Source: Winogradskyella eckloniae
GTDB lineage: Bacteria; Bacteroidota; Bacteroidia; Flavobacteriales; Flavobacteriaceae
DNA length: 64,000 nucleotides
Direction of reading: 5' to 3'
NCBI RefSeq assembly: GCF_013249045.1
Contig: NZ_JABRWP010000003.1
Span: forward strand, 62,001 to 126,000
Shown: in pieces, positions 31,121-64,000 of the stretch
Layout: each line of letters opens with the position of its first letter
Numbering within the stretch: position 1 is the stretch's first letter
Made by a program: the position numbers and the translations under genes
Notes under the pieces: generated by a model
Database searches by the model: none
Told to the model about the DNA's origin: nothing
The model's input: only the letters and a program-made list of their open reading frames with translations

Positions 31121-31143
31121 TTGTAGCTTTTTTTAATACTATC

Positions 31144-31164
31144 ATTCCGAACTTGTTTCAGAAT
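31144..31164. repeat. Small palindromic repeat, same family as one inside icmF
   Basis: ATTCCGAA-CTTGT-TTCAGAAT, 8-bp arms with one mismatch. Its sequence matches the reverse complement of 62137-62157 at 17 of 21 positions, so the two are copies of one repeat family, one between genes and one inside a gene. Confidence 0.7.
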
Positions 31165-31193
31165 ACCAAAAAAGCGTGTTTAGGTCTAGCGCG

Positions 31194-58268: not shown

Positions 58269-59369
58269 TTAGTTGCTGATTACTCTAAATTCTGTACGTC
58301 TGTTATTTTGGTGTTGTGTTTCAGTACAATCTACACCGTTAGAACATCTGTTTCTTAATTTAGTTTCTCCAAATCCTCTTGCAGTTAATCTGCTTCTTGA
58401 GATCCCTTTAGATACTAAATAGTTTACTACAGAATTAGCTCTTTGTTGTGATAAAGACTGGTTGAAATCATCGTTACCTCTAGAATCTGTATGAGACATA
58501 ATTTCAATACTTACGTTAGAATCAGTTAAGATTGGTAATAAAGTACTGTCAATTGTCTTTTTAGACGCAGCTGTTAATCTTGCGCTACCTAACTCATAAT
58601 AAACTGGTAATACGTTAGGATCTAATAATTCACACTCAACTTCTTCCCAAGTAGTAATACCACCTTTTTTATCTAATACAGTTCTTGTTACAGTTTGGTA
58701 CTGTGCAGCAATTGTATTTGTTGTCGTAGAAGCAGGTGTATCAATAACTCTTCTTTTTATTGTAGTGTATTCTGCAGGAATTTCAATTTCATCCATTCTT
58801 GCAGGCGTTTTAATAACTCTTTTCTTGTACGTTGTTGTTTGTTCTGGTACTGGTACAGAATTTGTACTAGCATCTGATGATAATGTTGTAAATCCAACAT
58901 CTCTTGATTGTGCAGGATACTCAACAAAACAAGCGGCAACACAGTCATCTTTGTTTACTGAAGGACAATCTTCTAGAATTTTGTACTCCCATCCTGAAGT
59001 TTGAGGGTAAACTTCAAAAGTTCTTGAGTCATTTCCAAAAGTAGCAGGTACAACTTTTAAATCTGTACGGCTTTCTTGTTTAACGTAAGGTACTTCTACA
59101 GTTTCGTATGTAGCAGGTACGTAAACAAACTTTTTTGAAGCTTCTTTTACTAATACGCGCTCTTCAACAGTTTTATACGTTGCAGGAACTACTTTTAAAG
59201 TAGTATAAGCAGGATACGTTTGTATTGTTTCTTCTACTTCTTTAAAAGAATCCTTAGTAATACATTTTACGTAACACTTTCCTGGTTCTGGGTTTGATGG
59301 TAAACCTTGCGCTTGAGAAAATCCGATTCCGGCAATAAAGCATACCAATAATAATAGTTTTTGTTTCAT
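58269..59369 (-). CDS. OmpA-family peptidoglycan-associated outer-membrane protein with N-terminal repeats
   Basis: 366 residues. Signal peptide ending FSQAQ. Residues 40-240 contain repeats with the pattern VPATYxTVxxxV (KVVPATYKTVEERV, VYVPATYETVEVPYV, EIPAEYTTIKRRVI, QYQTVTRTVL). The C-terminal 110 residues are an OmpA/MotB domain (EIMSHTDSRGNDDFN, LSQQRANSVVNYL, RGFGETKL, NRRTEFRV) with the Asp and Arg that bind diaminopimelate. It links outer membrane and cell wall. Cysteines (VKCITKD, DDCVAACF, GVDCTE) hint at disulfides. Confidence 0.92.
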   Translation of the reverse strand: MKQKLLLLVCFIAGIGFSQAQGLPSNPEPGKCYVKCITKDSFKEVEETIQTYPAYTTLKVVPATYKTVEERVLVKEASKKFVYVPATYETVEVPYVKQESRTDLKVVPATFGNDSRTFEVYPQTSGWEYKILEDCPSVNKDDCVAACFVEYPAQSRDVGFTTLSSDASTNSVPVPEQTTTYKKRVIKTPARMDEIEIPAEYTTIKRRVIDTPASTTTNTIAAQYQTVTRTVLDKKGGITTWEEVECELLDPNVLPVYYELGSARLTAASKKTIDSTLLPILTDSNVSIEIMSHTDSRGNDDFNQSLSQQRANSVVNYLVSKGISRSRLTARGFGETKLRNRCSNGVDCTETQHQNNRRTEFRVISN

Positions 59370-60642: not shown

Positions 60643-63600
60643 ATGATACAAGCTACTCCGTATAAACCCAAACATAAAGTTAGAATTGTAACTGCTGCGT
60701 CTTTATTTGATGGCCATGATGCGTCTATCAATATTATGCGTCGTATTATTCAATCTACAGGTGTAGAGGTTATCCATTTAGGCCATGATAGAAGTGTAGA
60801 CGAGGTTGTAAATACAGCCATTCAAGAAGATGCCAATGCCATTTGTTTAACCTCTTACCAAGGTGGTCATAACGAGTATTTTAAATATATGTACGATCTT
60901 TTAAAAGAAAGAGGTGCAGAGCACATCAAGATTTTTGGTGGTGGAGGAGGTGTAATTTTGCCTTCAGAAATTAAAGAATTAATGGATTATGGTATTGCGC
61001 GAATCTATTCTCCAGACGATGGTCGTGCTATGGGTTTGCAAGGCATGATTAACGATTTGGTAGAGCAGTCAGATTATCTTAGCCCATCCTTAATCCTTCC
61101 CAAAGGGAAGGAAATTACGCAGAGCTTAAAAGATAAAGATGTTAATACGATCGCTAGATTAATATCTTTTGCGGAAAATCAACATGATAAGTTTGAGAAG
61201 TTATTTTCTCAAACGAGTAAGAATTCTTCTCCTTTGGGGAAGTTAGAAGGGGCTCCAGTTTTAGGGATTACAGGAACTGGAGGCGCAGGAAAATCCTCTT
61301 TAGTAGACGAATTAGTACGTCGTTTTTTAATAGATTTTCCAGAAAAAACGATTGGCTTAGTATCTGTAGATCCTTCTAAACGTAAAACAGGAGGCGCACT
61401 TTTAGGCGATCGTATTCGTATGAATGCGATTAACTCACCAAGAGTATATATGCGTAGTTTGGCAACACGTCAATCTAACTTAGCATTATCTAAATATGTT
61501 AATGAAGCGGTTGAGGTTTTAAAAGCTGCAGAATACGATTTAATTATCCTAGAAACCTCAGGTATTGGACAGTCTGATACCGAAATTATTGAACATTCTG
61601 ATGTTTCTCTTTATGTAATGACACCAGAATTTGGAGCAGCAACACAATTAGAAAAAATAGACATGCTAGATTTTGCAGATCTAGTAGCCATTAATAAATT
61701 TGATAAACGTGGTTCTTTAGATGCCTTACGTGATGTAAAAAAACAATACATGCGTAACAATAATCTTTGGGATACACCACAAGAAGATTTACCTGTTTAT
61801 GGAACTATTGCGTCGCAATTTAACGATCCAGGAATGAATACGCTATACAAAGCCATCATGGATAAGTTGGTTGAAAAAGCAGATTCAGACTTAAAATCTA
61901 CGTTTCATATTTCTGATGAAATGAGCGAAAAGATTTTTGTAATTCCTCCAAGTAGAACACGTTATTTATCTGAAATTGCTGAAAATAATCGTGCTTACAA
62001 TAAAACAGCAAAGACTCAAGTTGAGGTGGCTCAAAAACTTTACGGAATTTATAAAACCATTTGTTCGGTAATGGATGTCACATCGAGCGCAGTCGAGATG
62101 TCTCTTATTGGTAAGCAAGGACTTAATCAAGATGAGATCCTGAAGCAAGTTCAGGATGACAATAAAGACTTTATAAAATTACTTATTGCAGAATTCGACC
62201 GTGTAAAATTAAACTTAGACCCTTACAATTGGGAAGTGATAACTGGTTGGGACGACAAAGTAAACCAATATAAAAATCCGATTTATAGCTTTAAAGTTAG
62301 AGATAAAGAAATAAAAATCGAAACCCATTCTGAATCCTTATCGCACTTACAAATTCCAAGAGTAGCTTTACCAAAATACCAGGCTTGGGGAGATTTATTA
62401 CGTTGGTCATTACAAGAAAATGTGCCAGGAGAATTTCCGTATACTTCAGGATTATACCCATTTAAACGTACAGGAGAGGATCCAGCACGTATGTTTGCTG
62501 GCGAAGGTGGACCAGAACGTACCAACAGACGTTTTCACTATGTCAGTGCAGGTTTACCAGCCAAGCGTTTATCTACTGCTTTTGATAGTGTAACCCTCTA
62601 CGGAAACGATCCCGATTTACGTCCAGATATCTACGGAAAAATTGGTAATGCAGGTGTTTCTATTTGTTGTTTAGACGATGCTAAAAAACTATATTCTGGT
62701 TTCGATTTAGCAAATGTTATGACCTCGGTAAGTATGACCATTAATGGTCCTGCGCCAATGTTGCTAGGTTTTTTTATGAATGCAGCCATTGACCAACAAT
62801 GTGAATTATACATTAAAGAAAATGGTCTTGAAGACGACGTAGAAGCAAAAATTGCGAAGCTTTATAAGGATAAAGAACGTCCTAAATACAATGGTGAATT
62901 ACCAGAAGGAAACAATGGTTTAGGTTTAATGTTATTAGGTGTTACTGGTGATCAGGTATTACCACCAGACGTGTATGCAGAGATTAAAAAGAATACCATT
63001 GCACAAGTAAGAGGAACGGTTCAAGCCGATATTTTAAAAGAAGATCAAGCACAAAATACTTGTATTTTCTCTACCGAATTCGCATTACGATTAATGGGAG
63101 ACGTGCAAGAATATTTTATTGCCAATAACGTGCGTAATTTTTATTCGGTGTCTATTTCTGGATATCATATTGCAGAAGCAGGAGCAAACCCTATTACCCA
63201 ATTAGCACTGACCTTATCTAACGGTTTCACTTACGTGGAATACTATTTAAGTCGTGGTATGGATATCAATAAGTTTGGTCCAAACTTATCCTTCTTTTTC
63301 TCAAACGGAATCGATCCAGAATATGCAGTGATTGGTCGTGTGGCTAGAAAAATTTGGGCAAAAGCCATGAAGCACAAATATGGAGCCAATGCAAGAGCGC
63401 AAATGCTTAAATACCATATTCAAACGTCTGGACGAAGCTTACACGCACAAGAAATTGACTTTAATGATATTCGTACAACGCTACAAGCCTTGTATGCTAT
63501 TTACGATAATTGTAACTCATTACACACCAATGCTTACGATGAGGCAATTACAACGCCAACTGAAGAATCGGTAAGACGTGCCATGGCCATTCAATTAATT

Positions 63601-64000
63601 ATCAATAAAGAATTAGGGTTAAATAAAAACGAAAACCCAATTCAAGGCTCTTTTATAATTGAAGAATTAACCGATTTAGTTGAAGAAGCAGTATTACAAG
63701 AATTTGACAGAATTACAGAGCGTGGTGGTGTTTTAGGCGCTATGGAAACCATGTACCAACGCAGTAAAATACAAGAAGAGAGTTTGTATTATGAAACCTT
63801 GAAACACAACGGAAAATTCCCAATTATTGGTGTAAACACATTTTTAAGTTCTAAAGGTTCGCCAACAGTAATTCCTGCGGAAGTGATTAGAGCAACGGAA
63901 GAAGAGAAGCAATTCCAGATAAAAACTCTAGAGAATTTACATAAAGCCAATGATACTAAAGCGATGCTTAAAGACTTACAGCACAAAGCCATTAATAACG
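60643..64000 (+). CDS. icmF: Fused B12-dependent acyl-CoA mutase (IcmF type), 3' end outside the window
   Basis: The frame is open from ATG 60643 to the window end with no stop (1119 residues visible). Order: B12-binding domain (1-140) with DGHDASIN (H25) for the base-off cobalamin; a linker; a MeaB-like GTPase with Walker [10 protein letters not shown] (about 211-219), [10 protein letters not shown] and NKFDKRG; a second linker; then the mutase TIM-barrel with [28 protein letters not shown] and related segments. IcmF isomerises isobutyryl-CoA and n-butyryl-CoA and carries its own G-protein chaperone. Both linkers contain in-frame palindromic repeat sequence. Length is close to complete for the family (about 1080-1160). 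Confidence 0.95.
61083..61111. repeat. Palindromic repeat inside icmF, first arm
   Basis: The 3' part is CCTTCCC-AAA-GGGAAGG, a perfect 7-bp palindrome with loop AAA (61095-61111), preceded by CCCATCCTTAAT. It is translated in frame as SLILPKGK in the linker after the B12-binding domain. Confidence 0.75.
61226..61252. repeat. Palindromic repeat inside icmF, second arm
   Basis: CTTCTCC-TTT-GGGGAAG then TTAGAAGGGG. It is roughly the reverse complement of the repeat at 61083, diverged at several bases, and reads in frame as SPLGKLEG just before the GTPase domain. The two arms lie 114 bp apart around ordinary linker codons. Confidence 0.65.
62075..62160. repeat. Two further palindromic repeats inside icmF (second linker)
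   Basis: GTCACATCGAGCGCAGTCGA at 62077-62096 continues into GATGTCTC and matches a sequence often seen between genes in flavobacteria (from memory). ATCCTGAA-GCAAG-TTCAGGAT at 62137-62157 is a perfect 8-bp palindrome of the same family as 31144-31164. Both are translated in frame (DVTSSAVEM and [10 protein letters not shown]) between the GTPase and mutase domains. Confidence 0.75.

Follow-up and report, generated by a model that had tools for sequence, protein, structure and literature searches.

Ogata et al. are said to have described Rickettsia palindromic elements (RPE) that lie inside protein genes. An account of CGTC/TGTC REPs and their dimers likewise covers REPs inside genes of several bacteria including Rickettsia, and its section 6 places Rickettsia RPE-4 and RPE-6 in the CGTC/TGTC superfamily (PMC3733652). 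Bacteroidetes are among the phyla for which it gives CGTC repeats, the string "flavobacter" is absent from its main text, and the one case in its section 15 of REPs at roughly equivalent sites is that of recB in two Xanthomonas species (PMC3733652). A literature search, with most subscription journals outside its scope, returned no recognised description of in-frame REPs in proteins of Flavobacteriaceae. An initial annotation of the present locus had regarded coding palindromes as little described in flavobacteria.

The locus analyzed here is icmF, encoding a fused isobutyryl-CoA mutase, at the end of a 64-kb stretch of DNA (the window) from a 3.69-Mb draft genome (Table 1). Pfam assigned B12-binding (residues 14-111), MeaB (171-406) and MM_CoA_mutase domains to the protein, and its best PDB match was IcmF 4xc6 (E=0). 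The closest of the 80 named icmF genes used for comparison include those of Winogradskyella, with 94% identity over the best segment for L094 and 90% for L048, which makes the host probably a Winogradskyella. L048 and L094 share their linkers with L022 and L019 and may belong to the same species. AlphaFold2 modelled the window protein poorly (mean pLDDT 58.9, pTM 0.44), with hints of coil for aa 147-157 and 195-204 and of partly helical units in linker 2. Upstream of icmF, positions 58269-59369 of the minus strand encode a protein with several similar PATYKTVEERV-like stretches and a C-terminus that we presume to be OmpA-like.

Table 1 Features of the icmF locus and its palindromic units, in window coordinates.
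Feature	Position	Strand	Remarks
icmF, fused isobutyryl-CoA mutase	60643..63999, past window end	+	complete ORF 1166 aa
Linker 1 region, palindrome-bearing "type B" version	61057..61260	+	aa 139-206; two linker versions in relatives
Linker 2 region, MeaB-to-mutase domain	62059..62187	+	aa 473-515
Unit 1, TCC family (AGCCC..CTTCCCAAAGGGAAGG)	61081..61111	+	aa 147-157
Unit 2, TCC2 form of unit-1 family, inverted	61226..61253	-	aa 195-204; 96% of consensus
Unit 3, TGTC-tagged REP, SAVE family, slot a	62077..62103	+	aa 479-487
Unit 4, TGTC-tagged REP, KQVQ family, slot b	62134..62160	-	aa 498-506
Intergenic sister of unit-4 family	31141..31167	+	23/27 bases of KQVQt consensus; in gap, after a hairpin

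Scanning the full 64 kb with 14 repeat consensuses at a threshold of at least 76% identity gave five matches, four inside icmF and one intergenic, and the reversed sequence gave none. The consensuses used here and in the gene comparisons below were composed once such genes had been seen, and independent support comes from searches of the genomes and from reversed controls. The four palindromic units that the initial annotation had placed at 61083, 61226, 62077 and 62137 are all present within a few bases of these positions, and its additional copy near 31144 is the intergenic sister in Table 1. The reading frame is open across all four units and throughout the complete gene, as had also been proposed. 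Confinement of the units to inter-domain linkers holds for three of them, which lie between Pfam domains; the unit at 61226 falls by Pfam within the first part of MeaB, immediately before the P-loop strand. The palindromes are not all kin: units 1 and 2 in linker 1 represent one untagged family in opposite orientations, and units 3 and 4 in linker 2 represent two TGTC-tagged families, inverted, with their tags outside and 30 bp apart. Three individual patterns exceeded the chance expectation in the window, with one match each for CTCCTTTGGGGAAGTTAGAAGGGG (at most three mismatches, 0.00 expected), ATCCTGAAGCAAGTTCAGGAT (at most three, 0.01 expected) and TCGAGCGCAGTCGA (at most two, 0.07 expected). 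The pattern CTTCCCAAAGGGAAG, at up to three mismatches, was unexceptional in the window (three matches against 0.86 expected; equalled in 5 of 100 shuffles).

Like RPE, these are short palindromic repeats that lie in frame inside conserved genes. The initial annotation had likened them to the Rickettsia coding palindromes, and the comparison is apt for the linker-2 units, which resemble the CGTC/TGTC superfamily of RPE-4 and RPE-6 as described in section 6 of the account above (PMC3733652). The likeness is drawn from described features, with two differences: Rickettsia is obligate intracellular whereas the genomes here are of Flavobacteriaceae (the nearest named icmF genes being from Winogradskyella and other Flavobacteriaceae), and here several families can occupy one codon slot, depending on the species. 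Both units 3 and 4 begin with TGTCA on their own strand. The 8-bp perfect stem of unit 4 (ATCCTGAA/TTCAGGAT) with its 5-nt loop fits the published form, a stem of 8-9 bp starting with A-T pairs and a loop of 4-5 nt (PMC3733652), whereas the stem of unit 3 is broken, with five outer pairs followed by a mismatch and C-G as the second pair. The tail also differs, being CCA in most, though not all, REPs of that account and TCT (unit 3) or CTC (unit 4) here. The arrangement of units 3 and 4 fits that of inverted dimers whose tags face outwards and whose members commonly lie 20-100 bp from each other, a spacing that the source gives for GTAG dimers (PMC3733652). Further points of likeness are that no dedicated transposase is described there and that copies occur inside ORFs, including those of tRNA synthetases; turnover at a fixed slot is frequent here, in contrast to the recB case of its section 15 (PMC3733652). 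From their sequences, units 3 and 4 may thus be called related to, rather than proven members of, the four described CGTC/TGTC families, and units 1 and 2 stand outside the superfamily because they have no tag. The inverted pair with outside tags and short spacing is also reminiscent of REPINs as outlined in PMC3116915 and PMC6006769, with the difference that no RAYT lay beside these repeats at the 30 Y1_Tnp loci scanned.

A search of the genome, as suggested in the initial annotation, found the palindromes dispersed across the own genome and the genus, in gaps as well as in other genes. The own genome contains seven sites of TCGAGCGCAGTCGA, 14 of TNGAGCGNAGTCGA (unit 3) and six of CTTCCCNAAGGGAAG (unit 1), and the latter two patterns are present in 54 and 28 of 60 genus genomes, respectively. 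For TCCTGAANCAAGTTCAGGA (unit 4), found in 37 of the 60, the icmF copy is the sole exact one in the own genome, where it has three looser relatives. Linker 1 had no match when searched against plasmids. Local concentrations were also seen: at G000:C21:493-508 kb (L333), five repeat matches cluster within 18 kb, and three of these lie in frame in the genes for 3-hydroxyacyl-CoA dehydrogenase, E2 and E1. At G000:C23:149314-149680 (L185, L336), the SAVE repeat occurs three times at intervals of about 177 bp, outside long ORFs, in an apparent tandem array.

The icmF gene was present in 60/60 same-genus genomes searched and was also fetched from 80 named genomes. Fifty-six of the same-genus genes were usable, leaving out G023 (N run) and G040, G045 and G046 (partial genes); a broken frame in the G023 gene, which tblastn had split, was rejected since the gene contains a run of N. 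At a threshold of at least 80% identity, 63 of the 64 repeat matches in same-genus genes fell within two stretches, residues 138-207 and 470-516, which together make up roughly a tenth of the gene. At least one repeat was found in 30 of these 56 genes, and 26 had no linker match. In the named set, 13/80 genes carried repeats, with 18/18 matches in the linkers; carriers include Seonamhaeicola (L060), Flavobacterium (L062, L063), Polaribacter (L078), Lutibacter (L092, L098) and Salegentibacter (L055). Reversed controls of all 56 same-genus and 80 named genes gave no matches.

Linker 1 occurs in two forms, each found across genera: the common type A, free of repeats, and type B, some of whose representatives carry repeats flanking a conserved helix. 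Linker 2 contains as many as three slots. Among the 56 genes, slot a held SAVE in 17, SEK in seven, ASE in one and a decayed SAVE in five; slot b held KQVQ in 14, RQAQ in five, RSAQ in three and a decayed or interrupted copy in five; and slot c held PTEG in five and VSSS in two. Linker-1 repeats were present in eight. The initial annotation had asked whether the linker residues are lineage-specific insertions, and so they appear: the VTSSAVEM slot (a) is empty in 26/56 genes and the EILKQVQDD slot (b) in 29/56, where L032 is counted as empty despite a nested, interrupted copy, and linker 1 is without repeats in 48/56. Against this, PKG(K/R) residues resembling those of the window linker stretch also occur in linkers of Myroides, Muricauda and Allomuricauda (L065, L074, L091) with no evident palindrome, so that part of the stretch may predate the repeat or represent a decayed copy. 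Slot match scores were mostly bimodal (at least 0.85 and at most 0.67), with the decayed copies in between.

Mapped onto a tree built from the remainder of icmF, the slots require at least 16 (a), 18 (b), 5 (c) and 7 (linker 1) changes of state, or 15 (a) and 14 (b) with decayed copies excluded, and among filled rows alone the family switches at least eight times in slot a and at least seven in slot b; the tree is a quick one, from codon positions 1+2, with 19 open forks in 76 inner branches. Close relatives differ in their repeats, with L017 lacking both linker-2 units, L019 the linker-1 units and the named L058 all four. In three sister pairs, a drop of identity to 42-60% was confined to a linker: 47-60% in linker 1 for the window and L019 (85-96% in other segments), 42-46% in the linker for L020 and L034 (85-98% elsewhere), and 51% in linker 2 for L247 and L250 (74-96% elsewhere). 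In L032 and L261, a 24-nt palindromic insert is nested in the slot-b repeat with the frame kept. The earlier proposal that repeat insertion has added or replaced linker codons is supported by these comparisons, with the correction that the linkers are not merely lengthened, because one slot carries different families in sister species. Linker 1 switches as an entire block, helix included, and the insertion of repeats into the window's linker 1 is therefore deduced rather than seen.

The content of two of these sites follows the repeat load of the genome. Where slot a holds an intact SAVE, the remainder of the genome is richer in SAVE copies (median 15 vs 6, p = 0.006), and linker-1 repeats likewise track TCC copies (5 vs 0, p = 0.0002); the KQVQ count does not track slot b content (p = 0.38). 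These tests make no correction for relatedness, and their subtraction of a single copy from each genome is crude. Linker 1 in two Flavobacterium genomes has a copy that matches the commoner local variant of the palindrome, CCCCCGAAGGGGG in L064 (5/7 sites) and CCTCCGAAGGAGG in L069 (11/14 sites), counts that may include the icmF copy itself.

The symmetry of the repeats is maintained across copies. Among 28 intact copies from slot a, of which 19 are distinct, 92.1% of the pairs at the five outer positions were Watson-Crick; shuffling of partners gave 62.3% on average and reached the observed value in 0/2000 trials. SAVE alone gave 94.4% vs 81.1% (0/2000), slot b 81.9% vs 73.7% (0/2000) and KQVQ alone 91.9% vs 88.1% (reached in 21/2000). 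When the stem was displaced by one or two columns, pairing was 30-41%; the +1-displaced stem also beats all its shuffles, and relatedness therefore plays a part in these values. The simplest cause of the kept symmetry would be replacement by an entire new repeat, with quasipalindrome correction and selection as alternatives.

SAVE-type repeats were also collected from seven genomes chosen for complete listings rather than drawn at random. Of 87 sites, 84 were classified, and 21 of these lie inside genes by a fixed rule (ORF of at least 150 aa, 25 aa after the first Met and 20 aa before the stop); all 19 genes concerned are Pfam-supported. In the own genome, they encode 3-hydroxyacyl-CoA dehydrogenase, E1, E2, HisA and IcmF; in other genomes, LeuS, a ValS-like synthetase, a MetH activation domain, a HemN-like protein, diphosphomevalonate decarboxylase, HsdM, an AcrB-type transporter, a glycosyltransferase and E1/E2 proteins. 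Fifteen of 18 forward SAVE copies are in one frame, reading (L/S)S(A/V/G)VE. The hisA gene of the own genome (L005) has an in-frame inverted repeat pair in a frame other than this usual one.

Two of these enzymes were followed across species, using for each the best 30 of the 60 genomes' matches, and the frequencies may be biased upward because the query itself bears a repeat. Repeats were found in 25/30 LeuS genes, with all 40 matches in three slots, and the reversed control of the 30 genes gave none; the LeuS gene of the own genome (L377) had no repeats in the consensus scan. Slot 1 comprises eight residues when empty (11/30 genes) and is longer in 19/30. Between the same landmarks, the filled L347 has 39 aa and the empty L349 has 30 aa, a net difference of +27 nt, or one repeat length. 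The longer gene contains GTCACTTCGAGCGCAGTCGAGAAGTCT, and the codons beside the repeat also differ between the two. Other filled sites are longer by 6, 8, 14, 16 or 21 codons, and the gain is thus not always a single unit. The families in LeuS include PTEQ, SAVE variants, VSSS, ASE and RQAQ, and in slot 3 SSPLGKSEGA-like codons occur in 7/30 genes, with the same repeat and frame as unit 2 in IcmF linker 1. In the 2-oxoacid-dehydrogenase E2, 19/30 genes have repeats (VSSS, SAVE, SEK, TCC2) between the lipoyl and catalytic domains, and some of these genes read the unit-2 repeat in the frame used by IcmF. The same palindromes thus lie in frame in LeuS, E2 and other Pfam-supported genes. Separately, columns ~756-916 of the LeuS loci L347-L376 form a long, strongly species-variable block, with no repeat at 78% identity among the matches listed.

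Taken at the level of sequence, these observations make it likely that REPs have been captured in frame at permissive sites, replaced there by different REPs and reshuffled in the form of linker alleles. In the proposed pathway, dispersed REPs would be captured in frame inside icmF at a loop or linker. The commonest unit (GTCA...TCT) is 27 nt long, or nine codons, and its favoured frame, V-T-S-S-A-V-E-x-S, supplies mostly small polar residues, so that capture in a loop or linker would spare the protein. Once present, a slot would remain permissive, and its copies would decay, be replaced by other REP families or receive nested REPs; complete linker alleles would then be swapped between species through recombination. 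We infer that REP copying would be transposition-like, that slot replacement would be REP-for-REP and that the effect of the repeats on IcmF would be near neutral. No insertion between near-identical strains was caught among the relatives compared, and inspection by eye of filled and empty LeuS sites, where the neighbouring codons have diverged, gave no clear target-site duplication. A RAYT as the mover was rejected as far as tested: with eight exact patterns or cores, no matching repeats were found beside the Y1_Tnp gene at 30 of 43 Y1_Tnp loci, the nearest association being one SAVE core ~1.2 kb away (L148). At L024 (1-1440, G029:C9), a RAYT-like Y1_Tnp match lies directly 3' of icmF, and GACAAGTCGCGACTTGTC palindromes adjoin it.

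Chance palindromes were rejected by the window, genome and reversed controls, and an assembly artefact by the recurrence of the slots in many genomes. Among the other explanations weighed, the repeats could be passengers that entered icmF once or a few times in the distant past, with the patchwork arising only from homologous recombination of linker alleles. Recombination alone would explain the en-bloc switch of the window's linker 1: the switches are block-like and limited to linkers, with linker 1 being 91-94% identical to that of L017 compared with 76-86% in the four preceding segments, it differs strongly from that of the sister L019, and types A and B both range across genera. The scenario is nevertheless unlikely as a full account, given that slots a and b of icmF each hold three families, of which the two whose distribution was searched, SAVE and KQVQ, proved to be dispersed in the genus, that slots of unrelated genes are filled by the same families, and that nested repeats (L032, L261) and the net gain of 27 nt between LeuS relatives are seen. 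We give very little weight to the idea that the palindromes are kept for an RNA or DNA role at domain boundaries, for example as a hairpin slowing the ribosome during domain folding. Three of the four window units do lie between Pfam domains, and the symmetry survives changes of both arms, as in the outer stem of slot a; however, 26/56 same-genus IcmFs have no linker repeat match, copies with broken stems exist, and stem covariation is expected from replacement of entire repeats or from quasipalindrome correction, with the shuffles being blind to relatedness.

Ordinary linker evolution, in which the peptides are selected and the palindromes arise by chance, is hardly credible: linkers are variable in all these IcmFs, and L065, L074 and L091 have PKG(K/R) where no palindrome is present, but exact and near-exact copies lie in gaps and unrelated genes, and the reversed controls are near zero. 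A bolder extension, which we regard as improbable though not negligible, is that repeat slots in conserved enzymes of Flavobacteriaceae (IcmF, LeuS, E2 and others) are active targets of cassette exchange by an unknown machinery; many proteins would then draw on one common, evolving stock of exchangeable linker peptides, and the palindrome or the peptide would bring some benefit.

Returning to in-frame capture and replacement of REPs, the best reading is that the system would work like the protein-coding palindromes of Rickettsia, here in Flavobacteriaceae and with fast turnover. Protein-coding palindromes would thereby be extended to Flavobacteriaceae. In conserved genes of these bacteria, the repeat families found at a given codon slot turn over fast, and their changes can be counted. 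The entry of palindromic repeats into proteins becomes testable because filled, empty, decayed and nested states coexist in one genus. For annotators and phylogeneticists, there is also a caution, in that stretches such as SSPLGK in these proteins represent repeat DNA rather than conserved motifs. In these bacteria, it seems that debris of the genome continually alters the flexible stretches of functional proteins.
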